NCBI GenBank assembly: GCA_902604065.1
Contig: CACKXF010000003.1
Coordinates: forward strand, 1-63,207
DNA: 63,207 nt
From: an uncultured Pelagibacteraceae bacterium
Lineage (GTDB): Bacteria > Pseudomonadota > Alphaproteobacteria > Pelagibacterales > Pelagibacteraceae
Direction: 5' to 3'
A model generated the notes under the pieces. That model was not told the DNA's origin. It worked only from the letters and a program-made list of their open reading frames with translations, and ran no database searches. Made by a program: the position numbers and the translations under genes. Position 1 is the first letter of the stretch, and each line of letters begins with the position of its first letter. This document shows positions 5,649 through 45,116 of this stretch, in pieces.

Positions 5649-6314
5649 ATGTTTTCACAAGAACTTAATAAAAAATTAGACCAATATCATTTGTTAAATC
5701 ACCCTTTCTATAAGTCGTGGAATGAAGGAAAATTAACTAGAGAAATAATTAAAGATTATGCTGAACAATATTATCAGCATGTAAAGGCGTTTCCAAGATA
5801 CATTAGTGCTACGCATTCAATTTGTGAAGATATTGAAAAAAGAAAAATCCTTTTAGAAAATCTTCAAGACGAAGAAAACCCAAATGCAGATCATCCAAAA
5901 CTTTGGAAAAATTTTGCATTAGCAATGGGAGCAGACTCAGAAAAAATTGAAGATGTTAAAAGAGAATGGTTTACTAATGATATGATTGAAAACTTTTTTC
6001 ATCAAGCTAGAAAATCATACGCTGAAGGACTAGCTTCTCTTTATACTTACGAAAGACAAATCCCAGAAATTGCTGAAACTAAAATAAGAGGATTAAAAAA
6101 CTTTTATGGAGTAACATCAAAAAAAGGTCTTGAATTTTTCGAAGCTCATAAGGCCGCTGATGTTATTCATAGAAAAGAATGCGAAAAACTTTTAGATGCT
6201 TTAACCGAGGAAGAAAAAGTTAAGGCGGAAAAAGCTTCTATGCTGACAGCAAGATATCTTTGGAATTTCCTAAGTGGAATGTCTACTAAACATAAAATAC
6301 AAGCTGCTGCATAA
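5649..6314 (+). CDS. CADD-family di-metal oxygenase, candidate pABA synthase
   Basis: The protein (221 residues) has the TenA/PqqC-like all-helical fold of the CADD family. Metal ligands known from chlamydial CADD can be placed at E75, H82, E135, H167, D171 and H174 with the family spacing (HKAADVIH near the C-terminus). The residues that CADD is reported to sacrifice or use while making p-aminobenzoate, a tyrosine and a lysine, fall at Y21 and K145 by the same offset. The likely role is PABA supply for folate made from the enzyme's own tyrosine, in the cytoplasm. A clear AAGGAG site precedes the ATG. The nucleotidyltransferase gene follows 8 nt later. Confidence 0.75.
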   Translation: MFSQELNKKLDQYHLLNHPFYKSWNEGKLTREIIKDYAEQYYQHVKAFPRYISATHSICEDIEKRKILLENLQDEENPNADHPKLWKNFALAMGADSEKIEDVKREWFTNDMIENFFHQARKSYAEGLASLYTYERQIPEIAETKIRGLKNFYGVTSKKGLEFFEAHKAADVIHRKECEKLLDALTEEEKVKAEKASMLTARYLWNFLSGMSTKHKIQAAA

Positions 6315-6322: not shown

Positions 6323-6715
6323 ATGACAGACCAAATGAAAAACGATGGTCATGTCTGGGATAACAAAAGTCCTACAGCTCAAATGTTGGGAAGGTGGCAA
6401 CCTTGGCACGACGGTCATCAAAAATTATTTGAGGAAATTTTAAAAAAAACTGGCCAAGTCAATATTATGGTCCGAGATGTTCAAGGTGTAGATGATAACC
6501 CGTTTAATTTTGAAACAGTAAAAAAAAATATTTCAGAAGCACTTAAAGATTATCAAGGCAGAATAAAAATCTCTCTGGTTCCTAACATAACTAATATTTG
6601 TTATGGAAGAGGGGTGGGTTATAAAATAGAAGAAATAGTTTTAGATGAAAAGACACAACAAATATCTGCAACTAAAATTAGGGAGCAAATGAGAAAGGAA
6701 GGAAAGCTTAAATAA
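6323..6715 (+). CDS. Small HxGH-family nucleotidyltransferase
   Basis: This 130-residue protein is a minimal nucleotidyltransferase of the HIGH superfamily. The nucleotide-binding GRWQPWHDGH contains the HxGH motif at H29-H32, and the C-terminal ISATKIR segment matches the second signature, seen as ISSTxIR or SGTxxR in cytidylyl-, adenylyl- and sulfate adenylyltransferases. A CYGRGVGY stretch is distinctive. It is one third the length of a standard ATP sulfurylase. It sits between the CADD gene and aprM, so a role with APS (adenylylsulfate) is attractive but unproven. Other substrates such as a phosphoester headgroup or pantetheine phosphate remain possible. Confidence 0.7.
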   Translation: MTDQMKNDGHVWDNKSPTAQMLGRWQPWHDGHQKLFEEILKKTGQVNIMVRDVQGVDDNPFNFETVKKNISEALKDYQGRIKISLVPNITNICYGRGVGYKIEEIVLDEKTQQISATKIREQMRKEGKLK

Positions 6716-6766
6716 TTGAGAACTGTTCTCACTTGACCTCTATTAATCAAACTACTAAAATTCATT

Positions 6767-7558
6767 ATGTTAATCATAAATCCATTCTCTGAACTGACAA
6801 ATGTAATTCCAGTTTCATTCTTGCAATTTTTTGTTATTGCTATGATCTTATTAATTATCATAGGAACAGGTTTAGATATGCTGCATAAAAAAAATGTAGT
6901 TTATTTTTTTAGAAACGCTCAAAAGGCAAAAAAGTCTGCAAAAACTGAACTAAGCACCGGAAAGAAAACAGCTGTAATTTTAAAAACTGTTGCCAGCGAC
7001 ATTGCTACAACATCAGAACTTGGCTTTGGTAAAAGAAGATTAGCTCATGTTCTTGGAATGTATGGAACAATTATTTTTTGGATAGCTTCAGTGACTTTAA
7101 TATTCAAATATTCTGATGGTGTAGTAGCACCATCTTATATTCCGATTATGTGGCATACAGGAGCAATAATGACTTGTATTGGAGGTTATTGGTTTTGGTT
7201 TTTTTTAAGAGTAGATGTTTCAGCAGAGGCACATCCTTGGTATAGAATCATTACTGCTGATTTATTTGTTTTAGCCTTGCTTGCATGTGCTACTTTTGGA
7301 TTAGCTTGGTCATTTTTACAATCATCAGGAATGATAGGATTAAGTTACTTATTTTTAACTTTATTTATTCTTGCGAATCTTGCTTTATTCGGTGGAGTTT
7401 ATTGGTCTAAATTTGCTCATATGTTTTATAAACCAGGAGCAGCTATTCAAAAAAATTTAGCTGAAGCTGACGGATCCAGAGACAATTTGCCTCCACCAGC
7501 TGATGCACCAGAGCAATTTGGCCTTGGTATTAAAAGAGAACAACCAAAACATTATTAA
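6767..7558 (+). CDS. aprM: AprM, membrane partner of APS reductase
   Basis: The 263-residue protein has about five transmembrane helices (roughly residues 16-36, 98-118, 130-150, 164-186 and 192-215) and a cytoplasmic C-terminal tail rich in Pro and Asp. Several histidines next to helices (for example in AHVLGMYG, MWHTGA and FAHMF) could ligate haem b, as in QmoC or NarI-like subunits. It is directly upstream of aprB and aprA, which is the arrangement named aprMBA in sulfur oxidisers and SAR11. It is expected to pass electrons from AprBA-catalysed sulfite oxidation to the quinone pool. The assignment relies mainly on gene context. Confidence 0.75.
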   Translation: MLIINPFSELTNVIPVSFLQFFVIAMILLIIIGTGLDMLHKKNVVYFFRNAQKAKKSAKTELSTGKKTAVILKTVASDIATTSELGFGKRRLAHVLGMYGTIIFWIASVTLIFKYSDGVVAPSYIPIMWHTGAIMTCIGGYWFWFFLRVDVSAEAHPWYRIITADLFVLALLACATFGLAWSFLQSSGMIGLSYLFLTLFILANLALFGGVYWSKFAHMFYKPGAAIQKNLAEADGSRDNLPPPADAPEQFGLGIKREQPKHY

Positions 7559-7621
7559 CATCATGATTAATAAAACTAGTATATTATTTAAAGCTAATAT
7601 AAAAACTGAGAGGAAATAATT

Positions 7622-8092
7622 ATGTCTACTTTTGTATATATGACGAGATGTGATGGATGCGGACACTGCGTAGACATTTGTCCTTCAGACATTATGCATA
7701 TCGATGAAACCATCCGAAGAGCAAAAAATATTGAACCTAATTTTTGTTGGGAATGTTACTCTTGTGTAAAAGCATGTCCTAATCATGCTATCGATGTTAG
7801 AGGTTATGCAGATTTTGCACCTATGGGCCACAGCGTAAGAGTAAGAAGAGAGGAAGAAAAAGGGACTATATCTTGGAAAATAAAATTCAGAAATGGAACA
7901 GAAAAAGATTTTGTTTCACCTATCACAACTAAACCTTGGGGAAAGTTTATTCCTAAATTAGCAGAGGGAGATAAACCTCGACAAGGAGAAATGAATTCAG
8001 AAGTTTTATATTCAGAACCTGAAGGGTTAGATACAAAAAAAGATTTACCTACTATAAGCAAAAATTCTTTTAAAAAAGGTGTCTATTACTAA
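7622..8092 (+). CDS. aprB: Adenylylsulfate reductase beta subunit AprB
   Basis: AprB is the iron-sulfur subunit of dissimilatory APS reductase. Two [4Fe-4S] cysteine sets are complete: C10, C13, C16, C20 and C42, C45, C48, C52. The C-terminal tail, including MGHSVRVRREE and FRNGTEKDF, wraps around AprA in the family. The length of 156 residues is typical. It is preceded by GAGAGG-type Shine-Dalgarno bases and its stop overlaps the aprA start by 1 nt. It works in the cytoplasm with AprA and probably with AprM. Confidence 0.95.
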   Translation: MSTFVYMTRCDGCGHCVDICPSDIMHIDETIRRAKNIEPNFCWECYSCVKACPNHAIDVRGYADFAPMGHSVRVRREEEKGTISWKIKFRNGTEKDFVSPITTKPWGKFIPKLAEGDKPRQGEMNSEVLYSEPEGLDTKKDLPTISKNSFKKGVYY

Positions 8093-9951
8093 TGCCTAAA
8101 AATAAAACCATACACGAAGATTGCGACGTACTAGTTGTTGGTGGAGGTATGGCTGGGACCGGTGCAACATTTGAAGCAAGGCACTGGGGAAGAGATTTAA
8201 AAATCATCTGTGTAGAAAAAGCAAATATCGACAGAAGCGGAGCGGTAGCTCAAGGTTTATACGCAATCAATTGTTATATGGGTATGAGATGGAATGAAAA
8301 TCAACCAGAAGATCACGTAAGATATGCAAGAAACGATCTTATGGGACTAGTAAGAGAAGATTTAGGTTATGACATGGCTCGTCATGTAGACTCAACAGTT
8401 CATATGTTTGATGAATGGGGCCTTCCAATGATGAAAGATAAAAAAACCGGTAGATATCAACGTGAGGGCAAATGGCAAATAATGATACACGGTGAAAGTT
8501 ATAAACCAATAGTTGCTGAAGCTGCAAAAAAATCAGCTGATAAAATTTATAATAGAATAATGGTTACACATTTACTCATGGATGAAAGCAATGGTAACAG
8601 AGTAGGTGGTGCAGTAGGCTTCAATATGAGAACTGGAGATTACCATGTATTTAGAGCAAAAACTGTAATTGTAGCTGCTGGCGGAGCTTCACATATATTT
8701 AAACCACGATCTGTCGGTGAAGGTATGGGTAGAACTTGGTATGCTCCTTGGAGTAATGGTTCTGCTTACGCTCTACCAATTGCAGCGGGTGCAAAAATGA
8801 CTCAAATGGAAAACAGAATTGTTTTATGTAGATTTAAAGACGGTTATGGTCCGGTAGGCGCATACTTCTTACATTTAAAAACTTATACTCAAAATGCTAA
8901 CGGTGAAAATTATGAAAAGAAATGGTATGAGAAAACCAAAGAACTGGTTGGGGAATATATCGATCATCATCCAACACCAACATGTTTAAGAAATCATGCT
9001 TTCATTCAAGAAGTTATGGCTGGAAACGGTCCAATACACATGGTAACAAAAGAAGCGTTTCAAGACCCACACCTGGAAACAGTAGGTTGGGAAAACTTTT
9101 TAGGAATGACTGTAGGTCAAGCAGTTGTGTGGGCATCACAAAACATTGATCCAAAGTACACAAATCCAGAACTAACCACGTCCGAACCATATGTTATGGG
9201 ATCACACGCTACTTGTTCAGGAGCTTGGGTAAGCGGTCCAGAAGACATTGCTCCACCAGAGTATTTTTGGGGATATAATAGAATGACAACTATAGAAGGT
9301 CTTTTTGGAGCTGGAGATACTGTAGGAGGAAGCGCTCACAAATTCTCATCAGGTTCTTTTACAGAAGGTAGATTAGCAGCTAAAGCAGCTGTTAAATACA
9401 TTCAAGATAAAAAAGCCGAAGATATTAATGTTAGTGAAAAACAATGTGAGAATTTAAAAAATATTATTTTTAAGCCTTTAGATAATTATACCATAGGAAG
9501 AAATGAAATTACAGGAGGAACAGTTTCACCAAGTTATATTTCTCCAATACAAGGCTTACAAAGACTTCAAAAAATAATGGATGAATATGTTGGTGGAATA
9601 ACAGCAAATTATATGACTAATGATAATTTATTAAAAAAAGGATTAGAATTATTAGACTGGCTTCAAGAAGATTTAGAGAATGTTGGAGCTGAAGATTATC
9701 ACCAATTAATGAGAGCTTGGGAATTAAAACACAGAACCCTCACATCACAATGTGTTACTGAGCACACTTTGTTTAGAGAAGAAACTCGTTGGCCAGGATA
9801 CTATTATAGAGGTGACAAACTAAAACTTGATGATGAAAATTGGCATTGTTTAACAGTATCAAGAAGAGACCCTAAAACTGGAAAATTTACTCTAGAGAAG
9901 ATGCCAGTTTATCATATCGTTGGGGACGAAAAGAAGCAGAAAGCCTCCTAA
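8092..9951 (+). CDS. aprA: Adenylylsulfate reductase alpha subunit AprA
   Basis: AprA is the FAD subunit that interconverts sulfite plus AMP and adenosine 5'-phosphosulfate. The N-terminal FAD fold (VVGGGMAGTG, residues 15-24) and the family segments RSGAVAQGLYAINCYMG, WEN-FLGMTVGQAV and GAGDTVGGSAHKFSSGSF are present. The length of 619 residues is that of AprA rather than of fumarate reductase or L-aspartate oxidase. With nearby sulfonate-cleaving enzymes and no reverse sulfite reductase, it most likely runs in the oxidative direction to clear sulfite. Transcribed with aprM, aprB and probably the two following genes. Confidence 0.96.
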   Translation: MPKNKTIHEDCDVLVVGGGMAGTGATFEARHWGRDLKIICVEKANIDRSGAVAQGLYAINCYMGMRWNENQPEDHVRYARNDLMGLVREDLGYDMARHVDSTVHMFDEWGLPMMKDKKTGRYQREGKWQIMIHGESYKPIVAEAAKKSADKIYNRIMVTHLLMDESNGNRVGGAVGFNMRTGDYHVFRAKTVIVAAGGASHIFKPRSVGEGMGRTWYAPWSNGSAYALPIAAGAKMTQMENRIVLCRFKDGYGPVGAYFLHLKTYTQNANGENYEKKWYEKTKELVGEYIDHHPTPTCLRNHAFIQEVMAGNGPIHMVTKEAFQDPHLETVGWENFLGMTVGQAVVWASQNIDPKYTNPELTTSEPYVMGSHATCSGAWVSGPEDIAPPEYFWGYNRMTTIEGLFGAGDTVGGSAHKFSSGSFTEGRLAAKAAVKYIQDKKAEDINVSEKQCENLKNIIFKPLDNYTIGRNEITGGTVSPSYISPIQGLQRLQKIMDEYVGGITANYMTNDNLLKKGLELLDWLQEDLENVGAEDYHQLMRAWELKHRTLTSQCVTEHTLFREETRWPGYYYRGDKLKLDDENWHCLTVSRRDPKTGKFTLEKMPVYHIVGDEKKQKAS

Positions 9952-9960
9952 GTTAATTAA

Positions 9961-10311
9961 ATGAATTTGTTAGAAAAAAGTGATGATGAAATCATTAAGA
10001 TCGCTAGTCCTATTTGGTCTAATCTAGTTAAATCTTCTAACATTAAAGATTATGGCGGTTTTACGAAAGATTTTTCATCACAAATGCTTTATGGAGCAAA
10101 TGAAGTAGAACTAGGAAAACAATGGGCCAGCAATAAACTGCTTACTAGTCTTTCAGAACAACAAGAAGTTTTAGGTTGTATAAGAAGAGACAATTTCATT
10201 ACTGTTTTATATAAGCAAAAAAGCGATACTGTTAATGGAGAATTTCTAGGTAGATTAGTTTTAGGAGTTGAAAGCGAAGCTGTGAAAGTATTCGGAGCAA
10301 CAATTTATTAA
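9961..10311 (+). CDS. Unknown 116-residue cytoplasmic protein in the apr operon
   Basis: I do not recognise a family. The product is soluble (no signal peptide or membrane helix) with an alpha-helical N-terminus and a beta-rich C-terminal half (EFLGRLVLGVESEAVKVFG). One cysteine (LGCIRRDN) is notable. It begins 9 nt after aprA and ends 36 nt before the TauE/SafE gene, so it is embedded in the sulfite-handling operon and likely serves it, for example as an accessory or sensing protein. No function can be read directly. Confidence 0.7.
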   Translation: MNLLEKSDDEIIKIASPIWSNLVKSSNIKDYGGFTKDFSSQMLYGANEVELGKQWASNKLLTSLSEQQEVLGCIRRDNFITVLYKQKSDTVNGEFLGRLVLGVESEAVKVFGATIY

Positions 10312-10347
10312 TATTGACAAGATCTATTTTCAGGCATACTTAGAAGT

Positions 10348-11478
10348 ATGCTGGAAATTTATCTTCCAATTGCACAAGTTAACATAGACATTTTTTTATT
10401 ATTATTTTTAAGTTTAGCTGTTGGAGTATTATCAGGCTTATTTGGTGTAGGCGGAGGTTTTCTAATGACACCGTTTTTAATATTTATGGGAATACCACCA
10501 GTCTATGCTGTACCTAACGAAGTCAATAATATATTGGCTACGTCAGTCTCAGGATCTCTTACTCATTGGTATAAAGACACATTAGATTACAAGATGGGTT
10601 TAATGATTGTCTCTGGCGGTGTAGTAGGAACAGTTTTAGGAATAACTACATTTACTTTTTTTTCTGATATCGGAAAAATAAGTGTAATAATTTCATTATT
10701 ATATATGTACCTACTAGCAATAGTGGGAACTTTAATGTTAATCCAAACTTATAAAGAAAAAACAAATCAAAGCAAAAAAATTATAATTAAACAAAAACTA
10801 CATGATCATAATTGGCTTCAAGGTTTACCAATTAGAATGAGGTTTCCAAAATCCAAACTATATGAAAGCGCAATAACTCCAATTTTGTTAGGTTTAGTAG
10901 TTGGCTTTGTTGCTGCTATGATGGGTATAGGTGGCGCATTCTTAATGGTTCCAGCAATGATTTATATTGTTGGGATGCCAATTAAATTAATACCAGGAAC
11001 TTCATTATTTGTTACCATATTTATAAGCGCAATAGTAACTGTGCTTCACGCATTTAATTATGGTTCAATTGACTTATTTTTAGTTTTACCTTTGATACTT
11101 GGTTCAATTGTTGGAGTTCAACTTGGTCAAAAACTTGGACAGTTCTTAGATAGCACTGAATTAAAATCTTTATTTGCAATGCTTCTTATCTCAGTTGCTA
11201 TTGCAATTGGATACGATTCATTTTTTAGAGACAAATCAGGATTTACTAATGACAAAGTTATTAATACAGATTTAAATGCATTAGCCGAATTTATTGTAAA
11301 ATTTTCCAGTGAAGCACCTTTTTTATATGGGACACTTGCCATTCTATTAGCAGTAGCTCTTGGCGCATTGATTGCGTTTATGAGAAAAATATTAAGTCCT
11401 ATTATTAGAAAAATGTTAAGTGACTTTAGAAAAAAAGAAACAAAAAAAGTAGTAGAAGTAAAATTTCCTGAGAAATAA
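10348..11478 (+). CDS. tauE: TauE/SafE-family exporter, probable sulfite/sulfoacetate exporter
   Basis: This 376-residue membrane protein contains the two family repeats, marked by GLFGVGGGFLMTP (near residue 31) and MMGIGGAFLMVP (near 192), with about eight to nine helices and a basic C-terminal tail. TauE/SafE proteins export sulfite, sulfoacetate or related anions. Placed between aprMBA and suyAB/xsc, export of sulfite formed by sulfonate cleavage is the most economical reading. The gene ends 1 nt before the convergent HIT gene. The annotated symbol reflects the family; the ion is inferred from context. Confidence 0.85.
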   Translation: MLEIYLPIAQVNIDIFLLLFLSLAVGVLSGLFGVGGGFLMTPFLIFMGIPPVYAVPNEVNNILATSVSGSLTHWYKDTLDYKMGLMIVSGGVVGTVLGITTFTFFSDIGKISVIISLLYMYLLAIVGTLMLIQTYKEKTNQSKKIIIKQKLHDHNWLQGLPIRMRFPKSKLYESAITPILLGLVVGFVAAMMGIGGAFLMVPAMIYIVGMPIKLIPGTSLFVTIFISAIVTVLHAFNYGSIDLFLVLPLILGSIVGVQLGQKLGQFLDSTELKSLFAMLLISVAIAIGYDSFFRDKSGFTNDKVINTDLNALAEFIVKFSSEAPFLYGTLAILLAVALGALIAFMRKILSPIIRKMLSDFRKKETKKVVEVKFPEK

Positions 11479-11479
11479 T

Positions 11480-11878
11480 TTATTTCCTTACATATTTTTG
11501 TTTTGATGGAATTACTCCTCTAACTCCACCTTTAGGATCATCAACATCACCTTTTCTTCTTGGGATTAAATGGATATGACAGTGCATAATTGATTGTCCT
11601 GCATCTTTTCCTATATTAACTCCAACATTATAACCGCTAATTGTTGAGTCTAATAATTTTAGTTTTTCTTTTTGTTCCTTTAGTAACTGGTTGAGTTCAT
11701 CAAGTTCTTCGGAAGTCAATTTAAAATAGTCATCAATATGTCTATTAGAAATTATTAGCGTGTGATGTTTTGTTACTGGATAAGCTGTATCTCTTATTAT
11801 AAAAAAAAATTTTTTCTCTTCTATAATTTTACATTTGGATTTATTGCAAAAAATACAGGAATCTTCTGTTTTAGACAT
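11480..11878 (-). CDS. HIT-domain nucleotide hydrolase
   Basis: This is a 132-residue histidine-triad protein. The catalytic HxHxH signature is at H99, H101 and H103 (HCHIHLIPRR), and the N-terminal CIFC pair with C16 may bind zinc. HIT enzymes cleave adenylated compounds, and Hint and Fhit proteins are known to hydrolyse adenosine 5'-phosphosulfate to AMP and sulfate. The start codon overlaps the suyB stop (TAATG), so it is cotranscribed with sulfolactate sulfo-lyase. This makes an adenylylsulfatase role, disposing of AprBA product, worth testing. A general Hint role is the alternative. Confidence 0.9.
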   Translation of the reverse strand: MSKTEDSCIFCNKSKCKIIEEKKFFFIIRDTAYPVTKHHTLIISNRHIDDYFKLTSEELDELNQLLKEQKEKLKLLDSTISGYNVGVNIGKDAGQSIMHCHIHLIPRRKGDVDDPKGGVRGVIPSKQKYVRK

Positions 11879-13047
11879 TAAGCACTTCTATAAAGCTTGG
11901 TCATTACAAACTCTTTATGACCTAAAGCTTCTGCACAAGTCAGTCTTCCGTTAGCTACTCTCAACATAGTCTTAATTAATTCATCACCAGCTTGAGACAA
12001 ATTCATTTCTCTTGATAGAATTTTAGAAACATCACAGTCAACGTGCTCCTTCATTAACTTTGCAGTTAAAGGGTTGGCAGTTAGTTTAACTACTGGTTCA
12101 ATTGGGTTTCCAATAATATTTCCTTGTCCAGTAGGAAATAAGTGAATATTAAAACCTCCAGCAGCTTGTAAAGTCACACATTCGGCTGCAGCAGAAGATG
12201 TGTCCATAAAATATAAGCCTTTTCCTTTTTTAGGTTCTTCAGCAGGTTCTAAAACATCAATAAATTTTAAATTACCTATCTTTTGAAAATTTCCAAAAGC
12301 TTTTTCTTCTATCGTTGTTAAACCCCCAGCTATATTTCCAGCTGTTGGTTGACTTTCAGATAGGTCATCTGTTGCTTCTTTTAAAATAAAATCATTATAA
12401 GCATTCCACGTTTTCATAAACTTATCTTTAGCTTCTGGTGTTGCTCCTCTAGCTGCACAAACTTTTTCAGCTCCTGTTAGTTCTGAAGTTTCTCCAAAAC
12501 ACAGATGTACTCCAAACGGTTCTAATTTTTCCATTAAATTTCCTACAGTAGGATTTGAGGCTAAACCAGATGTTGTATCTGACTCACCGCATTTTACAGA
12601 AATCCATAAATCACTTAAAGGACATTCCTCTCTTTGTTTTTCTGAAGCCCATTGAGAAAATTCTTGAGCTTTTTTAGAAGCTTTCATTATCGTTCCAATA
12701 TCACCTGTTCTTTCAATATGAAAACCTTCTACTGGCTTTCCAGTTTTAGCTATTTCATCTACTATTCTTTTAGTCCACTTAGGTTCAATACCAATTACAA
12801 TAACTGCTGCAACATTTGGATTTTTACCTGTGCCTATCATAGTTCTAAAATGTAATTCCAAATCCGCACCAAATTGTAATCTCCCATAAGAATGCGGTAA
12901 AGCGATTGTACCTTTTATATTGTTTGAAACGGCTTCAGCACAAGCATTCGAAATATCATCAACTGGGAGAATAATGACATGGTTTCTAGTTCCAGCTCTT
13001 CCATTTTCTCTTTTATAGCCTAAAAAACTTTTTGGGATTTCCATCAA
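11878..13047 (-). CDS. suyB: Sulfolactate sulfo-lyase large subunit SuyB
   Basis: SuyB belongs to the UxaA/altronate dehydratase family. It carries [15 protein letters not shown] at the N-terminus, a cysteine-bearing [16 protein letters not shown] segment, [10 protein letters not shown] and a C-terminal [12 protein letters not shown]. The 389-residue length and the split partner (SuyA, separate upstream gene) match (2R)-sulfolactate sulfo-lyase, which eliminates sulfite from sulfolactate to give pyruvate. Neighbouring xsc, aprBA and tauE support that substrate over altronate or galactarate. It starts 1 nt after suyA ends. Confidence 0.85.
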
Positions 13048-13048: not shown

Positions 13049-13336
13049 TTACCATTTTTTTGTTTTTACATTATGAACATGAACATGTTCACCTTTTTTA
13101 ATAGATTTAACAACTTTGCCAATATCATGACCGTATTTTAAAATAGTGTCACCCTCTTTTAAGTCTTGCAGGGCAATTTTATGACCTAAAGGTACCTCGT
13201 TAATAGAACTAACTTCTACAGTTTTGTCATTTTCCATGATCCAGGCCTTACATTCTTGGCCTTTTTTCGTGGTTTCAATAACGACAACTCCCACATTGTC
13301 TTTTTCATCATGAATAATTAAATCAGGCTGTGACAT
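13049..13336 (-). CDS. suyA: Sulfolactate sulfo-lyase small subunit SuyA
   Basis: The 95-residue SAF-domain protein has the pattern expected of the small subunit: [20 protein letters not shown] followed by [18 protein letters not shown]. This is the N-terminal part of UxaA-type dehydratases encoded separately, the arrangement described for SuyAB. It is 1 nt from suyB and divergent from xsc with 74 nt between the starts, which is a shared regulatory region for C2 and C3 sulfonate cleavage. It acts with SuyB in the cytoplasm. Confidence 0.85.
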
Positions 13337-13410: not shown

Positions 13411-15192
13411 ATGGCAAAAATGACCACAGAAGAAGCTTTTGTAAAAGTTTTGCAAATGCATGGTATTGAACATGCTTTTGGGATAATTGGGTCAGCCTTT
13501 ATGCCTATTTCTCATATCTTTCCAGATGCTGGCATAACATTTTGGGATGTTGCTCATGAAACTAATGGTGGATTAATTGCAGATGGATATACAAGATCAA
13601 CTGGAAAAATGTCAATGGTTGTTGCTCAAAACGGGCCAGGTATCACAGGATTAGTAACACCGATTAAAACTGCTTATTGGAATCATACACCACTACTTTT
13701 AGTAACACCTCAAGCAGCAAATAAAACCATGGGACAAGGAGGATTCCAAGAAGTCGAACAAATGAATTTATTTAAAGATATGGTTTGTTATCAAGAAGAA
13801 GTTAGAGATCCTTCAAGAATTGCAGAAGTTTTGAATAGAGTAATTGAAAAAGCAATTAGAGGATCTGCCCCAGCACAAATAAATGTACCAAGAGATTATT
13901 GGACACAAATTATAGATATAGAATTACCACCAATAGTTAGATTAGAAAGACAAGCAGGGGGAGCAGAAGCCATAGATAAAGCTGCAAAATTATTATCCGA
14001 CGCTAAATTTCCAGTGATATTATCTGGGGCAGGAGTAGTTATAGGCGGAGCTATTGAGGAGTGTAAAAAATTAGCTGAAAAATTGGACTCTCCAGTTTGT
14101 TCAGGCTACCAACATAATGATAGTTTCCCTGGAAGCCATCCTTTAGCTGTTGGACCTTTAGGTTATAATGGATCAAAAGCAGCGATGGAGTTAATTTCTA
14201 AAGCAGATGTTGTTTTAGCATTAGGAACAAGATTAAATCCATTTTCTACTTTACCAGGATACGGAATTGATTATTGGCCCAAAAATGCAAAAATTATTCA
14301 AGTTGATATGAATTCAGACAGGATTGGTCTAACAAAAAAAGTAACAGTAGGTATTTGCGGTGATGCAAAATTAGTTGCTCAACAATTATTAAATAAACTC
14401 TCTAAAAATGCGGGTGACACAGATAGACAAAAACGAAAAGATTTAATACATCAAACCAAGTCTGCTTGGCTTCAAAAATTATCAAGTTTAGATCATGAAG
14501 ATGACGACCCAGGAACAGTGTGGAATAAAGAAGCTCGATCTAGAGATAAAGATAGGATGTCACCCCGTCAAGCATGGAGAGCAATACAAGCAGGTATGCC
14601 TGAAGATGTAATTATATCAAGTGATATTGGAAACAATTGTGCTATCGGAAATGCTTATCCAACTTTTGAAAAAGGAAGAAAATATTTAGCACCAGGTTTG
14701 TTTGGCCCTTGTGGTTACGGATTTCCATCTATACTTGGAGCAAAAATTGGTTGTCCAGATGTTCCTGTAATAGGTTTTGCTGGAGATGGAGCTTTTGGTA
14801 TTAGTATGAATGAGATGAGTTCTTGTGCGAGAGAAGAATGGCCTGCTATTACAATGGTAATTTTTAGAAATTACCAGTGGGGTGCAGAAAAAAGAAATAC
14901 AACATTATGGTTTGATAATAACTTCATCGGAACAGAGCTTGACCCAGAATTAAGTTTTGCTAAAGTTGCTGATGCATGCGGCTTGAAAGGTGTAACAGTT
15001 AAATCAATGGAAGATACTACAAAAGCAATTAAACAATCTTGTGAAGATCAAAAAAAAGGGATTACCACTTTTATTGAAGTCATCTTAAACCAAGAATTAG
15101 GTGAGCCGTTTAGAAGAGATGCCATGAAGAAGCCAGTCAGTGTTGCAGGTATAAAAAAATCTGACATGAAACCCCAAAAAAACTTAAATTAA
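13411..15192 (+). CDS. xsc: Sulfoacetaldehyde acetyltransferase Xsc
   Basis: Xsc is a thiamine-diphosphate enzyme that converts sulfoacetaldehyde and phosphate to acetyl phosphate and sulfite. The cofactor-activating glutamate is E50 (DVAHETNG). The ThDP and magnesium motif starts at GDGA (residues 458-461) and continues to RNYQWGAEKRN. The N-terminal GIIGSAFMPISHIFPDAG and the length of 593 residues distinguish it from acetolactate synthase. The start follows a short AT-rich divergent region shared with suyA. The 3' end overlaps the convergent M23 gene by 4 nt. The product fits the nearby phosphotransacetylase. Confidence 0.95.
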   Translation: MAKMTTEEAFVKVLQMHGIEHAFGIIGSAFMPISHIFPDAGITFWDVAHETNGGLIADGYTRSTGKMSMVVAQNGPGITGLVTPIKTAYWNHTPLLLVTPQAANKTMGQGGFQEVEQMNLFKDMVCYQEEVRDPSRIAEVLNRVIEKAIRGSAPAQINVPRDYWTQIIDIELPPIVRLERQAGGAEAIDKAAKLLSDAKFPVILSGAGVVIGGAIEECKKLAEKLDSPVCSGYQHNDSFPGSHPLAVGPLGYNGSKAAMELISKADVVLALGTRLNPFSTLPGYGIDYWPKNAKIIQVDMNSDRIGLTKKVTVGICGDAKLVAQQLLNKLSKNAGDTDRQKRKDLIHQTKSAWLQKLSSLDHEDDDPGTVWNKEARSRDKDRMSPRQAWRAIQAGMPEDVIISSDIGNNCAIGNAYPTFEKGRKYLAPGLFGPCGYGFPSILGAKIGCPDVPVIGFAGDGAFGISMNEMSSCAREEWPAITMVIFRNYQWGAEKRNTTLWFDNNFIGTELDPELSFAKVADACGLKGVTVKSMEDTTKAIKQSCEDQKKGITTFIEVILNQELGEPFRRDAMKKPVSVAGIKKSDMKPQKNLN

Positions 15193-38976: not shown

Positions 38977-40194
38977 ATGAAAATTAAAAAATGTAGAATC
39001 TGTAAATCCAAAAAGTTAGAAAAATTATTTTCATTGGGAAATATGTGTTTCACCGGTAAATTTCCAAATGAAAGACAAATTATACAAAAACAACCTATAT
39101 TGTTATTAAAGTGTAAGAACTGCGAATTAGTCCAACTGGGACATAACTTTGATTTAAATTATTTATATGGACCTGATTATGGCTATAGAACAGGCATCAA
39201 TAAGACAATGTTAGATCATGTAAAAAAAGTTGTAAAACATTTGTCAAAAAAAACAAAACTAAAGAAAAAAGAATTTGTTTTGGATATAGCAAGTAATGAC
39301 GGTTCGTTACTCAAAAACTATAAGAAAAATATTACTACTTTTGGAATTGACCCAATACTGAACAAATATATAGATGAATATAGTAATATAAATTTTAAAG
39401 TTTCAAGTTTTTTTTCTGCAGATAAAATTAAAAGTATTGTAAAAAAAAAATTTAAAATTATTACAGCTTTATCAGTATTTTATGACGCTAACGATCCAAA
39501 TAAATTTTTAAAAGATGTAAAAAAAATATTATTAAAAGAGGGAATTTTTTTGTTAGAGTTCGCAGACTTAGCCTCTATAATTCAATATAAAATGTTTGAC
39601 ACAATTTGTCATGAACATCTTGAATATTATAGTAGTAAAGTAATTATAGATTTATGTAAAAGAAATGGTCTAAGAGTATTTGATATTAAAAAAAATAATA
39701 TAAATGGTGCGAGCAAACAATATTATGTATGTCATAATGACTCTCATTATAAAGATAATATTTCAATTATAAAAAAAGAACTTAATTTAGAAAAAAAGTT
39801 GCAATTATCAGACAAAAATACCTATAAAAAATTTATTAATGAAATAAATCAATCAAAATATAAATTGAATAAATTATTAAATAAAATTAATAGAATGGGT
39901 AAAAAAGTTCATTGTTATGGGGCTTCGACTAAAGGTAATGTATTACTTCAATATTATAATATTAATAATAAAACAATTAATTTTGCTGCAGAAAGAAATA
40001 AAAAAAAATATAACTTATATACACCGGGAACAAAAATTAAAATAATCTCTGAAGTTCTTTCACGATTTCACAAACCTGACTATTATTTAGTTTTACCGTG
40101 GCACTTTAAAAAAGAAATATTAATTCGTGAAACAAGTATAAGAAAAAAAGGTACTAAATTTATTTTTCCCCTTCCTAAACTAGAAATTATTTAG
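38977..40194 (+). CDS. C-methyltransferase-type enzyme with N-terminal zinc domain
   Basis: A 405-residue protein with N-terminal CRICKSKK and CKNCELVQLG (zinc-binding domain), a SAM-methyltransferase domain with FVLDIASNDGSLL, and a C-terminal domain containing HCYGASTKGNVLLQYY and DYYLVLPWHFKKEI. This layout is found in sugar C-methyltransferases. It resembles the protein at 34294-35493. The 3' end overlaps the convergent glycosyltransferase gene by 8 nt. Confidence 0.87.
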   Translation: MKIKKCRICKSKKLEKLFSLGNMCFTGKFPNERQIIQKQPILLLKCKNCELVQLGHNFDLNYLYGPDYGYRTGINKTMLDHVKKVVKHLSKKTKLKKKEFVLDIASNDGSLLKNYKKNITTFGIDPILNKYIDEYSNINFKVSSFFSADKIKSIVKKKFKIITALSVFYDANDPNKFLKDVKKILLKEGIFLLEFADLASIIQYKMFDTICHEHLEYYSSKVIIDLCKRNGLRVFDIKKNNINGASKQYYVCHNDSHYKDNISIIKKELNLEKKLQLSDKNTYKKFINEINQSKYKLNKLLNKINRMGKKVHCYGASTKGNVLLQYYNINNKTINFAAERNKKKYNLYTPGTKIKIISEVLSRFHKPDYYLVLPWHFKKEILIRETSIRKKGTKFIFPLPKLEII

Positions 40195-41065
40195 AAAAAG
40201 TTAATTTTTCCACTAATTCTTCAAAATGGCTTTGAAAATAAAAATCAAATGCATTATTTCCATTTGGGTAAACTAGAGGAAAATTAGGACCTGACTCTAA
40301 CAATCTTGGAACTTTAAGAGCTTCTGCCAAAGCATAACCAAAAGATAAATTTCCAATAAATAATCTTGAACCCTTAATTATTGAAGATAATTCCAAAAAG
40401 TCTTTACTATCATAGTATTTCAGACTCGTTATTTCTTTTTTTAAATCTTTATATTCATTCTCTAAACCTACAAAAATAATATTTTTATATGAGCTTAGAA
40501 AAGAGTAATTAATAAATTTATTTTGTCTTCTTAAACTTCTCATTATAACTATAAAATTTTTATAATTTTTATTGCCTTCAACTTCTAAATAATTTTTTGA
40601 TAAATCTGGAAAAATACCTGTTAAATGAAAATACCATCTTACAGAGTCTATATTGAAGTTAATTGGAAGTTCTCTAAAAAAATTTAAATCTATATCAATT
40701 TTTTGACCATCAAAAATATCCACTTTTTTGAGGAACTTTTGATTTCTCAAAAGCGGTAACATTTTAGCAACAGATTTTTCTGATAGATACACTTCTCCAA
40801 ATGGATGATCTCTTGAAGCGACATGTTTGGGAATTTTTTTATTTATTTGTAGATATAAATGACATTCTTTATTTTTAGATAATTCCTTCAATACAGGCAA
40901 ACTGTTAATAATATCACCTAAATGGCCATAATGAAGAAAAGAAATCTTATCATTTTTTATTAAAATATTTCTAAATTCATTTATTTTTGGAACGATAAAA
41001 CTTTTGTAATTATCTTCTCTTATTTTGATTTTTTTTTTAAAAATATTCGAAAAAAAACTTTTCAC
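40187..41065 (-). CDS. Glycosyltransferase of the heptosyltransferase (GT9-like) type
   Basis: This 292-residue protein has a typical GLGD-like segment (HYGHLGDIINSLPVLKEL) and a C-terminal LFIGNLSFGYALAEALKVPRLLESGP reminiscent of heptosyltransferases, in which NDTG or a similar signature lies. Homology is remote, so the donor is unknown. It is upstream of gmd with an 11-nt gap and in the same minus-strand transcript. Confidence 0.65.
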   Translation of the reverse strand: MKSFFSNIFKKKIKIREDNYKSFIVPKINEFRNILIKNDKISFLHYGHLGDIINSLPVLKELSKNKECHLYLQINKKIPKHVASRDHPFGEVYLSEKSVAKMLPLLRNQKFLKKVDIFDGQKIDIDLNFFRELPINFNIDSVRWYFHLTGIFPDLSKNYLEVEGNKNYKNFIVIMRSLRRQNKFINYSFLSSYKNIIFVGLENEYKDLKKEITSLKYYDSKDFLELSSIIKGSRLFIGNLSFGYALAEALKVPRLLESGPNFPLVYPNGNNAFDFYFQSHFEELVEKLTFSK

Positions 41066-41076
41066 AATAAAATAGT

Positions 41077-42060
41077 TTAATAACCTTCTTTTTCAACAAA
41101 CTCTAAATCAGCTCTAACCATATCTTTTACTAGTCTTTTAAAATCATATTTTGGTTTCCATTTAAGCTCGCGCTTAGCTTTTCTGCAATCGCCTAAAAGA
41201 GTCCTAACTTCTGAAGGACGATATAAAGTTTTTTCTATTTTAATATATTTTTTATAATCCAGATCAACTAACTCAAATGCCATCTTTGCAAAATCTTTAA
41301 CTGAATATTGCGTTCCAGTGCTTATAACATAATCATTTGGAACTCGTTTATTAAGCATCAGCCACATTGCTTCAACATAATCTTCCGCGTGGCCCCAGTC
41401 TCTTTTCGCATCCATATTACCTAGTCTTAAATCTTTTTGTAAGCCAAACTTTATTCTTGCTACTGAATGCGTAATTTTTCTTGTTACGAATTCAAAACCT
41501 CTTCTAGGTGACTCATGATTAAATAATATACCACTACAGCAAAACATATTGTAAGCTTCTCGATAGTTTCTTGTTAAATCGTATCCTGCAACCTTAGATA
41601 TTCCATAAACTGACCTAGGATAAAAAGGTGTTTTTTCTGATTGAGGAACTTCTCTTACTTTGCCAAACATCTCTGATGAGCCTGCAAAATAAAATTTAGT
41701 TTTAGGTGAAAATTCTTTCAATGCAGACAGTATATAATGAGTTCCGTTAATATTTGTATTTAAGGTTGAAAATTCATCTTTAAAAGAATAATCAACATAG
41801 CTTTGAGCCCCTAAATGATAAACCTCATCTGGCTTTATTCTCTGTATTATTTTCACTAAACTAGCATAACTTTCTAAAGATGCGGGGTGTAAAGTAATTT
41901 TATTCAATATATGTCTTAATCGCCACAATCTATGATTCCCATCTTCAAGGGCAACTCTTCTAACGAGGCCGTGAACCTTATATTTCTTTTTTAATAAAAA
42001 CTCGGTTAAATAAGAACCATCTTGCCCAGTAATTCCAGTTATTAAAGCTTTTTTATTCAT
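41077..42060 (-). CDS. gmd: GDP-mannose 4,6-dehydratase
   Basis: Extended SDR of 327 residues. The GITGQDGSYLTEFLLKK motif is at the N-terminus. YGISK with the SSEMFG segment supplies the catalytic Ser/Thr, Tyr and Lys, and HESPRRGFEFVTRKI is characteristic of Gmd. It makes GDP-4-keto-6-deoxymannose, precursor of fucose, rhamnose or perosamine. No fcl or perosamine synthase is within the window, so the next step lies elsewhere. Confidence 0.95.
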   Translation of the reverse strand: MNKKALITGITGQDGSYLTEFLLKKKYKVHGLVRRVALEDGNHRLWRLRHILNKITLHPASLESYASLVKIIQRIKPDEVYHLGAQSYVDYSFKDEFSTLNTNINGTHYILSALKEFSPKTKFYFAGSSEMFGKVREVPQSEKTPFYPRSVYGISKVAGYDLTRNYREAYNMFCCSGILFNHESPRRGFEFVTRKITHSVARIKFGLQKDLRLGNMDAKRDWGHAEDYVEAMWLMLNKRVPNDYVISTGTQYSVKDFAKMAFELVDLDYKKYIKIEKTLYRPSEVRTLLGDCRKAKRELKWKPKYDFKRLVKDMVRADLEFVEKEGY

Positions 42061-42109
42061 TATATTTTAGTTATTTAATGTTATTAATTGTTAATTAAAA
42101 TATTTTAAA

Positions 42110-43219
42110 TTGATTTATACTATTAGAAAAAAATTACAATTGCTATTTAAAAAGTTCACTTATGGACTTTTTAAATTATTTTATGGCAAAATTGAGAAAT
42201 CTGAAAAAATAGGAAATAATTCAAATTCTAGTGTAAAAATATCAAAAGTAGATAAAGACTTTGAATATAAAGTTTATGCAATTAAAAATGCCAGGCTATA
42301 CACCGACACAATAAACGACACAGCTATTATTCAAAACAACAAAATTATTGATGGTCCTTCATTTCAAATTAGAAATGTTAAATTTGAAAATGTAGATAAA
42401 AATATAGTTTTTACTAAAGGCACTCCAAGATTTAAAATTAAATTAAAGGGTAATTTATTCTCTTTATTAACCGGTGGTGGAGGAAATTATAATTATTGGC
42501 ACTGGATGTTTGACGTTTTACCAAGGTTAAAAATTTTAATGAATATAATGGATGTTAATGAAATAGATAATTTTTTATTTCCAAATTTAGAAAAAAAATA
42601 TCAAAAAGAGTCATTGGACTTAATCGGAATACCCAAAAAAAAAAGAATTTCGAGTATAAATATTAGACATATTGAATGTAGAGAAATATTTGTTACAGAT
42701 CATCCTTATGTAATTAAGAACCAAGCTTCCGAAGAAATCCAGAATATGCCATTATGGATTATTAATTGGATTAAAGAAAGTCTTTCTCAAAATATAAAAT
42801 ATATCAAAACAATAAATTATCCAAAAAAAATTTATATCGATAGAAGTGATGCGACTTCGAATCAAAGTTCAATGAGAAAGATTATAAACGATAATGAAAT
42901 CAAAGAAACGCTTGAAGAAAAAGGTTTTACAAGTATAAAATTGAGTTTTTTAACTTTAGAAGAACAAATTAAAATTTTTCAAAATGCCGAGATAATAGTT
43001 GGTCTTCACGGCGGTGGATTTGCAAATATGATATTTTGCCAACCTGAAACTAAAATAATCGAATTAAAATCAGTATCAGCTGGCGACGTCATTTTAAATT
43101 TGGCAGAAAAATGTAATTTAAAGTATGATACTATTTCAAAAGTACCAGAACAATTAAATCAAAATAATCAACTTGGATTTATTAGAGTTGAAAAAAACGA
43201 AATATTAAAAAAATTATGA
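42110..43219 (+). CDS. DUF563-type (GT61) glycosyltransferase
   Basis: The 369-residue protein carries the GT61 features: GGGGNYNYWHWMFDVLPRLKIL, KKIYIDRSDATSNQS and the C-terminal IVGLHGGGFANMIFCQPET. It appears cytoplasmic or membrane-associated. No ATG exists near the N-terminus; an in-frame TAA lies upstream at 42092-42094 and the first usable start is TTG at 42110, with no clear ribosome binding site. Its 3' end overlaps the acyltransferase start by 4 nt. Confidence 0.8.
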   Translation: MIYTIRKKLQLLFKKFTYGLFKLFYGKIEKSEKIGNNSNSSVKISKVDKDFEYKVYAIKNARLYTDTINDTAIIQNNKIIDGPSFQIRNVKFENVDKNIVFTKGTPRFKIKLKGNLFSLLTGGGGNYNYWHWMFDVLPRLKILMNIMDVNEIDNFLFPNLEKKYQKESLDLIGIPKKKRISSINIRHIECREIFVTDHPYVIKNQASEEIQNMPLWIINWIKESLSQNIKYIKTINYPKKIYIDRSDATSNQSSMRKIINDNEIKETLEEKGFTSIKLSFLTLEEQIKIFQNAEIIVGLHGGGFANMIFCQPETKIIELKSVSAGDVILNLAEKCNLKYDTISKVPEQLNQNNQLGFIRVEKNEILKKL

Positions 43220-44256
43220 AAAAGTACCACGGAATAGAAATACTTAGATTTTTTACTTCTATTTCAGTATTAATTTATCATTATAGACACTTTTTTGCCC
43301 CTTATAATTCTTCTTCAAATTTAAATTATTTTGATATCTCATCATCTTTGCCATTTTACAATTTTTTAGGTTTAATTTATGAGCACGGTATTTTTGGTGT
43401 ACACGTTTTTTACACTATTTCTGGTTTTGTATTTGCTCATATATATCTTTCAAATCAAGAAAAGATACCTGCAAAAAGTTTTTTTAAAAATAGATTTGCA
43501 AGACTTTACCCTTTACATTTTTTTACTTTAATTCTTGTTTGTATATTGCAATTTTATAGTCATCTTAAATTTGATACTTTTCAAATTATTGAGATTAATG
43601 ATGTTTATCACTTTTTTTTAAATATTTTATTTATCTCTTCCTGGGGATTTGAAAATGGCCACTCCTTTAACGCTCCCATATGGAGTGTATCCGTTGAAAT
43701 TGCAATATATATTTTTTTCTTTTTATTATTATCATTTATTAAAAAGTATAAAATATTTTTTGTAATATTATTGAGTTTACTTCTTCTTATTATTGATAAG
43801 TCTAAAATCTACGATACGTTATTTTTAGAGTGCGCGCGATTGTTTTTCTCTGGAACATTAATTTACTATCTCTTTCATATTAAATTAAACAATTTATATT
43901 ATTTTATAGTTGCATTATTTTTTTTATTAATAGCTTTTATAGGTAATTTTAAAACTTTTATTTTCTGTCCTGCTTTACTTTTATTCTTTGTAAGTATTGA
44001 CACATATATTAAAAGTGAGTCTTATCAATTATTCTTTAAAAAATTGGGTAATCTTACATACTCCCTTTATTTGTTGCATTTACCTGTACAGATCATACTT
44101 TTAATAATGTTTAAGCAACTTCAAATAAGTGAATTGGTGTTTACAAATGTAATATTTTTTATACTATTTTTTGTTTTATTGATATTCATAGCCAATTATT
44201 TCTTTAAATATTATGAAAAACCCCTTAATGAACTCATAAGAAATAAAATTAAATAA
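43216..44256 (+). CDS. Acyltransferase family 3 membrane protein (OafA-like)
   Basis: The 346-residue protein has about ten hydrophobic helices and the Acyl_transf_3 features: GIEILRFFTSISVLIYHYRHFF with the catalytic-histidine region and a FKNRFARLYPLHF segment. PVQIILLIMF is the terminal region. Such proteins O-acetylate polysaccharide. It overlaps the GT61 gene, so surface glycan decoration is likely. Confidence 0.9.
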   Translation: MKKYHGIEILRFFTSISVLIYHYRHFFAPYNSSSNLNYFDISSSLPFYNFLGLIYEHGIFGVHVFYTISGFVFAHIYLSNQEKIPAKSFFKNRFARLYPLHFFTLILVCILQFYSHLKFDTFQIIEINDVYHFFLNILFISSWGFENGHSFNAPIWSVSVEIAIYIFFFLLLSFIKKYKIFFVILLSLLLLIIDKSKIYDTLFLECARLFFSGTLIYYLFHIKLNNLYYFIVALFFLLIAFIGNFKTFIFCPALLLFFVSIDTYIKSESYQLFFKKLGNLTYSLYLLHLPVQIILLIMFKQLQISELVFTNVIFFILFFVLLIFIANYFFKYYEKPLNELIRNKIK

Positions 44257-44263
44257 CATATTT

Positions 44264-45058
44264 ATGGATAAAAAATATAATTTTCTTAGACCAATTAAAA
44301 ATGAAAATCTTGTAAGGCTTGGAAGAGAAGCAGACGGTGGATATGTAGTAGATAAAAAAATTGTTCAAAATACAGATTGTCTAATTACATTTGGCTTAGG
44401 TCCTGACTGGTCCTTCGAATTAGATTACATAAAGTTAAACAATGAAGTAAAAATATTTATGTATGATTATACTGTTAATAGCAAACCATATTTAAAAGAA
44501 ATCTGGAAATACTTAAGAAGATTTTTGACTTTTAGATCAAAAAGAAGAGATGTACAAGATAGAATTAAATACTATCTTAACTATTTAAATTTTTTTAAAT
44601 TAAAAAATGTTAATTTTTTTCCTGAGAGAATTACATTTCCTATCCAAAATAAGATAGATGCCGATTTAGATAAAGTTTTTTCAAGAATTTCAAATGAAAA
44701 AAAAGTAGTTCTTAAAAGCGATATTGAAGGTAGTGAATTTAAAATTATTGATGAAATTTTAAAATATAATTCTAAGATTAATATGCTAATTTTTGAATTT
44801 CATTGGCTTAATATTAATGAAGATAAATTTATTTATTCAATAAATAAGATTAAAGAAAAATTTAATATTATTCATATCCATGGAAATAATCACTGTGAAA
44901 AACTACCTAGTGGTCTACCGATAGCCTTGGAAATGACTTTTGTTAATAAGGAAATACAAAAAGATGAAGGCAATTATATTAAAAGTTTTCCTTTAAAGAA
45001 CTTAGATTTTCCTAATAATCCCTACAAAGAAGATTTATTTTTTTCTTTTTCGGATTAA
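44264..45058 (+). CDS. FkbM-family methyltransferase-like protein
   Basis: A 264-residue protein with READGGYVVDK near residue 22, ITFGLGPDWSFELDY as the SAM-binding region and KSDIEGSEFKIIDEI, the hallmark of FkbM-type methyltransferases. It likely methylates a sugar hydroxyl. It is downstream of the acyltransferase with a 7-nt gap. The tRNA-Met promoter begins just after its stop. Confidence 0.75.
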   Translation: MDKKYNFLRPIKNENLVRLGREADGGYVVDKKIVQNTDCLITFGLGPDWSFELDYIKLNNEVKIFMYDYTVNSKPYLKEIWKYLRRFLTFRSKRRDVQDRIKYYLNYLNFFKLKNVNFFPERITFPIQNKIDADLDKVFSRISNEKKVVLKSDIEGSEFKIIDEILKYNSKINMLIFEFHWLNINEDKFIYSINKIKEKFNIIHIHGNNHCEKLPSGLPIALEMTFVNKEIQKDEGNYIKSFPLKNLDFPNNPYKEDLFFSFSD

Positions 45059-45075
45059 ATACTTTGAAGGTGTTA

Positions 45076-45103: not shown

Positions 45104-45116
45104 CATTTATTGTTTT

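Follow-up and report, generated by a model that had tools for sequence, protein, structure and literature searches.

Genes of the aprMBA Locus

The locus described here raises the question of which enzyme consumes the APS that AprBA would form from sulfite. The window, i.e., the whole stretch of 63,207 nt analyzed (contig CACKXF010000003.1 of GCA_902604065.1, a genome that is 75% complete), contains aprB (7622..8092, + strand; TIGR02060, 187.7 bits, cut-off 135.65) and aprA (8092..9951, +; TIGR02061, 996.2 bits, cut-off 641.75); with both profiles above cut-off, the pair encodes a dissimilatory APS reductase, AprBA. These genes are preceded by aprM (6767..7558, +), encoding a putative AprBA membrane anchor that is assigned by position and was named in a preliminary description of this DNA; its QmoC-like match is weak (E 1.6e-4) and far under the cut-off. 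Upstream of aprM is a gene (6323..6715, +) encoding a 130-aa nucleotidyltransferase (NTase) with HDGH and ISATKIR motifs, proposed here as a miniature sulfate adenylyltransferase in a kinase-less form, and at the other border is a gene (11480..11878, −) encoding a member of the HIT superfamily (PF01230, 64 bits, cut-off 21.5; HCHIH motif), a putative APS hydrolase or phosphorylase. The preliminary description had reported these ORFs as we found them, and had proposed that one of the two bordering proteins closes the AprBA route.

The NTase gene, aprM, aprB, aprA, an ORF encoding a 116-aa protein (9961..10311, +), and a gene encoding a TauE/SafE-family permease (10348..11478, +; PF01925, 161.2 bits) are consecutive and all on the + strand. 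The 116-aa protein, which has no family assigned, adjoins aprA in both families of the order; its AF2 model had a pLDDT of 79.5 and its NTF2/SnoaL-like matches were weak. The permease is a likely sulfite exporter, a role taken from the family name only. A gene encoding a CADD-family (TENA/PqqC-like) protein (5649..6314, +; TIGR04305, 301.7 bits, cut-off 200) ends 8 bases before the NTase gene and is found immediately 5′ of it in 43 of the 80 nearest named loci. Two putative sources of sulfite are encoded downstream, including xsc (13411..15192, +; TIGR03457, 970.9 bits, cut-off 676.4), encoding sulfoacetaldehyde acetyltransferase, and genes for the suyB-like large (11878..13047, −; PF20629, 281.8 bits; PF04295, 115.6 bits) and suyA-like small (13049..13336, −) subunits of a sulfolyase; both suy names follow the preliminary description, and suyA, upstream of suyB, is assigned as an ORF by its position. 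Sulfite release is established for the Xsc and SuyAB families. The HIT and suyB genes share one base, and this spacing makes the previously suggested cotranscription of the HIT gene with suyAB plausible.

According to two papers, Candidatus Pelagibacter ubique has AprBA but no sat, and AprBA is ascribed to sulfite detoxification (PMC5069961; PMC5864207). The preliminary description had seen no canonical sat in the window; a search of the window's genome (75% complete) likewise gave no PF01747 (Sat) match, and Sat was rare in the order (10 of 197 genomes).

Sequence and Fold of the NTase

The NTase has the nucleotidyltransferase fold with HxGH and ISxTxxR motifs; its sequence and its fold both resemble those of NMNAT and PPAT and are not those of Sat. 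It barely reaches PF01467 (21.3 bits, cut-off 21), and a Pfam profile scan gave no PF01747 match. Its best PDB profile match was 1f9a (2.4e-10), and hhalign gave 98.5% to NMNAT-like proteins versus 9.6% to four Sat sequences. The AF2 model (pLDDT 93.8) matched PPAT best (Z 11.4, rmsd 3.0, 114 aligned residues), followed by NMNAT (Z 10.3, rmsd 2.7, 111 aligned); the best 50 fold matches listed include PPAT and NMNAT but no Sat, which is not evidence against kinship with Sat. The reaction proposed for the NTase is that of Sat, and Sat has similar HxxH and ISxTxxR motifs, but the four Sat ORFs have 335–354 aa. The ISATKIR tail, which the preliminary description had likened to that of sulfate adenylyltransferases, was rejected as a sign of Sat kinship: to our knowledge the ISxTxxR tail is common to the entire superfamily, and the argument is not supported because the NTase family is NMNAT/PPAT-like, the NTase being much nearer to NMN adenylyltransferases than to Sat in profile comparisons.

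Archaeal NMN adenylyltransferase (NadM) and PPAT share with the NTase the fold and the GRxQPxHxGH ... NPF ... ISxTxIR motifs; however, the solved relatives listed mostly have 146–176 residues (107–115 aligned), and a YGRxVGY motif is almost invariant in the NTase family. Invariant core residues in A2 and A3 include P17, G23, R24, Q26, P27, H29, H32, G95, G99, Y100, and S115. With NMNAT profiles the closest and PPAT and NMNAT the best folds, the NTase could be an NMN or other small-molecule adenylyltransferase whose proximity to aprMBA is incidental, but we consider this very unlikely. The NTase scores far below the curated NMNAT cut-offs (28.4 versus 127 bits for NF002243; 23.6 versus 181.2 bits for TIGR01527), it is missing from 28 of the 149 genomes that are at least 90% complete, which would be odd for a housekeeping NMNAT, and its relatives occur in the APS kinase, sulfotransferase, and CysH/sulfite reductase contexts described below.

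Genomic Contexts of NTase Relatives

Many NTase relatives carry an APS-kinase-like domain as a fusion or have one encoded alongside (28 of 80 named loci). In haloarchaea, the fusion partner of the NTase is a complete APS kinase (150.5 bits to APS_kinase in Halocatena), and a sulfotransferase gene is located upstream in 8/8 annotated records of these fusions. The order of kinase followed by adenylyltransferase, beside sulfotransferases in haloarchaea, is that of the bifunctional PAPS synthetase; the adenylyltransferase half is, however, NMNAT/PPAT-like and of about 120 residues here, and the window copy has no kinase. In small alphaproteobacterial genomes (g33), a CysH operon with the kinase-NTase pair was present in 5/5 genomes (cut at the CbiX end in one), in the order CbiX, tetrapyrrole methylase, sulfite reductase, CysH, DUF2061, kinase, and NTase. 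The NTase relatives share with CysDN a place in a CysH/sulfite reductase operon; CysN was above cut-off in none of the six genomes of the family with this operon, and Sat was present in one of the six (four of the five g33 genomes are without Sat). The Sat of the CysH-operon genus is in G219, in an apparent polysaccharide cluster. The window NTase itself differs from CysDN in matching PF01467 only, and the window operon has no GTPase gene.

Among viral loci with an NTase ORF, a sulfotransferase gene was found in 34 of 92, always on the same strand (34/34), with none in view in the other 58, as compared to 0/80 control loci with UvsX. A sulfotransferase was also found in 24 of 71 viral loci without NTase in a 2OG-oxygenase control, a control that is not neutral because its query came from an NTase/sulfotransferase locus. 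Class-survey matches at E 1e-7 to 1e-11 were not counted as members of the NTase family; their ORFs appear to be NMNAT- or nudix-fused. One kinase-NTase fusion has a PK-like gene and a gene for a TauE-like permease as neighbors; a PK-like neighbor was also found in three of the four canonical Sat loci examined.

These independent neighborhoods, with APS kinase, sulfotransferase, or CysH and sulfite reductase, suggest that the NTase acts in sulfate/APS chemistry, and, as the family repeatedly occupies the place expected of an ATP sulfurylase, it may be the missing enzyme for the AprBA product. Judged from sequence and gene context, it is fairly likely that the family represents a third kind of ATP sulfurylase, of about 120 residues, derived from NMNAT/PPAT, unrelated to CysDN and distant from Sat, that operates in both directions, occurs in SAR11, haloarchaea, other alphaproteobacteria, phages, and environmental viruses, and fills the SAR11 sat gap. 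According to PMC6286981, the two ATP sulfurylases, which are non-homologous, are Sat and CysDN. Within the sources accessible to our literature search, whose coverage leaves most subscription journals outside, there was no description of the NTase and no matching novel ATP sulfurylase, and the family thus apparently has not been recognized as ATP sulfurylases in the literature found. If the proposal is true, annotation overlooks sulfate activation wherever members of the NTase family stand in for Sat or CysDN, the sulfation loci of viruses and archaea included.

Co-Occurrence of the NTase and HIT Genes with aprA

A census of 197 genomes of the order (155 with and 42 without aprA) supported the suggested link of both candidates to aprBA. 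The NTase was present in 140/155 aprA-positive versus 11/42 aprA-negative genomes (one of these, G106, counted on a weak NTase match), leaving 15 aprA-positive genomes without it; in the second family of the order, the corresponding numbers were 33/35 and 0/18. The HIT orthologue was present in 110/155 aprA-positive versus 0/42 aprA-negative genomes. Both co-occurrences exceed chance by Fisher tests, which treat genomes as independent and ignore phylogeny. Among the copies listed, the NTase gene is located ≤4 kb from aprA in 11/11 genomes of the window's genus and in 31/32 of the second family. In the genomes looked at of the main SAR11 genus, a kinase-NTase pair is located about 50 kb from aprA; co-occurrence of NTase and aprA in that genus may therefore reflect common ancestry.

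The HIT gene is located ≤6 kb from aprA in 107 of the 110 genomes with the orthologue, directly 5′ of aprM in two loci (L036 and L038), and next to suyB in the window. It shares the HIT family and HxHxH motif with Fhit, Hint4, and DcpS, and its nearest solved chains are HIT proteins; unlike these, its orthologue group occurs only in aprA-positive genomes among the 197, and its APS activity is putative. HIT proteins are promiscuous, so APS is not necessarily the substrate. PMC8704414 describes a reaction of APS and ammonia by Fhit, and its references include a paper whose title presents Hint4 and DcpS as both hydrolases and phosphorylases of APS. On these grounds the HIT protein could account for most of the APS consumption in the window, yielding AMP and sulfate, or ADP with phosphate, with AprBA running without pyrophosphate and the NTase playing a minor part. 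This seems improbable, as the HIT orthologue is absent from all 35 aprA-positive genomes of the second family, though 33 of them have the NTase, and from 5/11 aprA-positive genomes of the window's genus, all 11 of which have the NTase. The same distribution implies that the two need not be alternatives, and the favored view is that the HIT protein would provide an additional way to consume APS, either hydrolytic or phosphorolytic. The earlier proposal that one of the two closes the AprBA route thus stands as regards the co-occurrence and the lack of a sat match in the incomplete genome, loses its argument from a Sat-like tail, and is refined from one protein to possibly both.

Direction of the Proposed Reaction

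The kinase was searched for in 62 genomes of the order. It was found in none of the 11 census genomes of the window's genus with NTase and aprA, including the window's incomplete genome. In 9 of the 11 aprA-negative genomes with NTase, the kinase adjoins or is fused to the NTase; the two without kinase are G038 (98% complete) and G106. In a further sample of the window's genus, 14 of 41 genomes had the kinase, with NTase and aprA status known only for the genomes that overlap with the census. The short SAR11 kinase matches APS_kinase weakly (17.7–45.5 bits, one under the 21.1 cut-off), and AAA_33 competes. The rival readings of the locus are not mutually exclusive, and the window NTase could run forward, converting sulfate to APS for reduction by AprBA or for PAPS. 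Such a direction would suit the CysH operons and sulfotransferase loci, but is unlikely in the window, where the genome and its ten census genus mates lack a detected kinase and sulfite is made and apparently exported (Xsc, SuyAB, TauE); Pelagibacter AprBA also falls in sulfur-oxidizer lineage I according to two papers (PMC2211403; PMC5864207).

The kinase result and the position in the apr operon fit the conversion of APS and pyrophosphate to ATP and sulfate. We therefore propose that the NTase is probably a member of a miniature sulfate adenylyltransferase family from the NMNAT/PPAT branch, with kinase-coupled relatives running forward, the copies of the window's genus running from APS and pyrophosphate to ATP and sulfate, and HIT as the second route. 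Xsc and SuyAB would release sulfite, which AprBA-AprM, by homology, would combine with AMP to form APS; the NTase would convert APS and pyrophosphate to ATP and sulfate; TauE, by its family name only, may export surplus sulfite; and HIT, where present, may convert APS to AMP and sulfate or, with phosphate, to ADP and sulfate, as suggested by the biochemistry of other HIT proteins. Kinase-coupled relatives would instead form APS from ATP and sulfate, giving PAPS or feeding sulfate reduction. SAR11 bacteria rank among the most abundant marine cells; if true, a miniature ATP sulfurylase closes the pathway and allows them to derive ATP from taurine and other sulfonates.

The gene arrangement varies within the order. 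The NTase gene is upstream of aprM and in the same direction as aprMBA in the window's genus and convergent with aprMBA in the second family, and two loci (L076 and L082) have the NTase and TauE genes with aprMBA absent. The apr-linked NTases nest within the kinase-NTase fusions of SAR11 and retain the WDNKKPT linker.

Gene Order in the Window and the Search for a Canonical ATP Sulfurylase

Our reading of open reading frames (ORFs) bore out the gene order around aprMBA given in the preliminary description. On the forward strand, a CADD-like gene comes first in the row, followed by the 130-aa HxGH nucleotidyltransferase (NTase; 6323–6715), which matches PF01467 barely above cut-off (21.3 bits against 21), and by aprM, aprB, aprA, a 116-aa ORF without any family (9961–10311), and a TauE permease; HIT (11480–11878), suyB, and suyA follow on the reverse strand, and xsc on the forward strand. 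Curated models identify aprA, aprB, and xsc securely, and the names aprM, suyA, and suyB were taken from the preliminary description. In both families of Pelagibacterales the 116-aa ORF neighbours aprA; its AF2 model (pLDDT 79.5) runs from helices into four strands and gives weak NTF2/SnoaL-like matches. The window also has an AT-rich stretch at 39001–51000 (GC 0.24–0.26), which contains a tRNA-Met (45117–45193). Its ORFs look like sugar-nucleotide and glycosyltransferase genes, and the stretch may be a variable island for surface polysaccharides.

The window is contig C3 of a genome of 872 kb and 33 contigs, judged 75% complete. The preliminary description saw no canonical ATP sulfurylase (Sat; PF01747) in the window and proposed searching the complete genome; we found no Sat match in the genome as recovered.

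Association of the NTase and HIT Genes with aprBA

Four genes (aprA at E < 1e-20, fragments counted in; the NTase; the HIT orthologue at ≥93.6 bits; and Sat) were sought in one set of 197 Pelagibacterales genomes, many of them incomplete; the Fisher tests ignore shared ancestry. Among the 155 genomes with aprA (152 over the family cut-off), 140 carried the NTase, versus 11 of the 42 without aprA (p = 6e-16, ancestry ignored), and 110 carried the HIT orthologue, versus none of the 42 (p = 8e-19, ancestry ignored); co-occurrence with aprBA, proposed earlier as a check, was thus found for both candidates. Most of these genomes also have another HIT protein that matches weakly (at most about 35 bits, below the orthologue threshold). 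Sat was matched in 10 of the 197 genomes, eight of them with aprA, and showed no association with aprA. The 18 genomes of the window's genus include 11 with aprA, all carrying the NTase, versus 3 of the 7 without aprA; the HIT orthologue was present in 6/11 versus 0/7. A second family had the NTase in 33 of 35 genomes with aprA versus none of 18 without; the HIT orthologue was absent from all 53 of its genomes. Four genomes of the census had aprA and neither candidate.

Position also ties both genes to aprBA. The HIT orthologue lies ≤6 kb from aprA in 107 of the 110 genomes having it; the exceptions are G125, G177 (internal stop in the match), and G195 (aprA position not listed). The NTase lies ≤4 kb from aprA in all 11 listed copies of the window's genus, where it is upstream of aprM on the same strand, and in 31 of 32 of the second family, where an NTase paired with an APS-kinase-like gene (kinase) converges with aprMBA and the 116-aa gene (L031–L034). 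In the main SAR11 genus, at the loci examined, HIT is directly upstream of aprM (L035–L039) and the kinase-NTase pair is not near aprMBA (in G003 the distance is about 50 kb). The best 80 of 582 relatives, picked for likeness to the window NTase, were all from Pelagibacteraceae, Pelagibacterales, or Candidatus Pelagibacter, which places the window in SAR11; the NTase was in an apr cluster with no kinase adjoining in 50 of these loci, a kinase was present in 28 (18 beside the NTase, 10 fused to it), and TauE alone was beside the NTase in two. TauE directly follows the NTase at three loci without aprMBA (L012 of G038, L076, and L082), a layout reflecting either recent aprMBA loss or another NTase role.

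The HIT protein has the motif HCHIH, and its nearest solved relatives are HIT proteins. PMC8704414 describes Fhit as converting APS and ammonia to phosphoramidate, and among its references is a paper whose title has Hint4 and DcpS acting on APS by hydrolysis and phosphorolysis. We read the HIT protein as a candidate second APS route.

Fold and Putative Activity of the NTase

The AF2 model of the NTase (pLDDT 93.8) had archaeal NMNAT 1ej2 as its best Foldseek match (2.7e-4), and VIA-align gave Z 11.4 against PPAT (rmsd 3.0, 114 aligned) and Z 10.3 against NMNAT 1f9a (rmsd 2.7, 111 aligned). A PDB profile search listed NMNATs, and Sat was not among the matches listed. By its fold and profile matches, therefore, the family does not belong to the Sat lineage; its putative Sat-like working rests on gene context.

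Searching 289 genomes of this class for the NTase gave 16 matches, six of them outside SAR11 (E < 1e-40), three of these in genus g33. The family of g33 has the NTase in five of six genomes, and all five carry, on one strand, tetrapyrrole methylase, sulfite reductase, CysH, DUF2061, kinase, and NTase genes (identities from Pfam for L154); CbiX starts this operon in four, and the contig ends there in the fifth. The CysH of L154 has the CC and CxPC motifs, the mark of APS-type reductases. Among the six genomes (54–89% complete), none had CysN over cut-off and one, G219, had Sat, at a locus (L266) that reads as a polysaccharide cluster. In the CysH operon, the NTase fills the slot where an ATP sulfurylase is required. 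Among the remaining three of the six matches, G381 has a Sulfotransfer_3 gene some 3 kb away from its kinase-NTase fusion, G310 has one at a distance of about 9 kb, and none is on the matching contig of G291.

The gene contexts of the family, here and below, are strong indirect evidence for sulfate/APS chemistry of the NTase; the direction of its putative activity in the window is one that we infer. PMC6286981 names two non-homologous kinds of ATP sulfurylase, besides which the NTase would, if this is true, be a third.

Origin, Viral Copies, and Haloarchaeal Relatives

Regarding DISPLACEMENT and origin, the kinase-NTase fusion of G173 (L044) adjoins a pyruvate-kinase-like gene and a TauE-like permease. 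Of the four canonical Sat loci that we examined, three (L046, L048, and L266) likewise have a pyruvate-kinase-like gene adjoining Sat, and two of these three also have the permease; L048 has APS kinase and sulfotransferase as well, and L047 has none of these four genes. In a tree (supports 0.73–0.84), the apr-linked NTases and L040 (G038) nest within SAR11 fusions, and the apr-linked NTases keep the linker WDNKKPT. A PAPS-making fusion may thus have shed its kinase and then been recruited into the apr operon. This agrees with the kinase being found in 0/11 census genomes of the window's genus with NTase and aprA, in neither of the exceptions G038 and G106, and in 9/9 other genomes with the NTase and without aprA; however, 14 of 41 genomes in another sample of the genus, counted for the kinase mostly without NTase or aprA status, have it, which counts against simple kinase loss.

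One pattern in a viral collection gave at least 600 stretches, of which at least 583 code for a relative (E ≤ 1e-3), a loose set that may include NMNATs. We took 100 of these loci (L163–L262), two of which (L218 and L245) lie on a single contig. An NTase ORF was present in 92, reaching the size of a fusion in 31, and a sulfotransferase (one member checked by Pfam) in 35, 34 of these among the 92 and all 34 on the NTase strand; in 21 of the 34 the gap was 349–434 bases, which would fit an intervening kinase gene. Control loci with UvsX had a sulfotransferase in 0/80, and 2OG-oxygenase loci, found with a query itself drawn from an NTase locus, in 33/80 (9/9 with the NTase, 24/71 without). Five sequenced phages carry the fusion, and in the two examined no sulfotransferase is annotated. 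Kinase-NTase genes in environmental viruses, with a same-strand sulfotransferase in about one third of loci, suggest virus-encoded sulfation.

The kinase matches APS_kinase, often weakly (five SAR11 proteins scored 17.7–45.5 bits against a cut-off of 21.1), and the best PDB match of one fusion was 2yvu, a probable adenylyl-sulfate kinase (1.2e-7). The clearest case is a Halocatena fusion, with APS_kinase at 150.5 bits followed by an NTase domain having the same core residues as the family. Nine haloarchaeal plasmid records were matched, one without annotation; in all eight annotated records (L131–L132 and L427–L432) a sulfotransferase precedes the fusion, and a YqcI/YcgG-family protein is encoded near the sulfotransferase and kinase-NTase genes.
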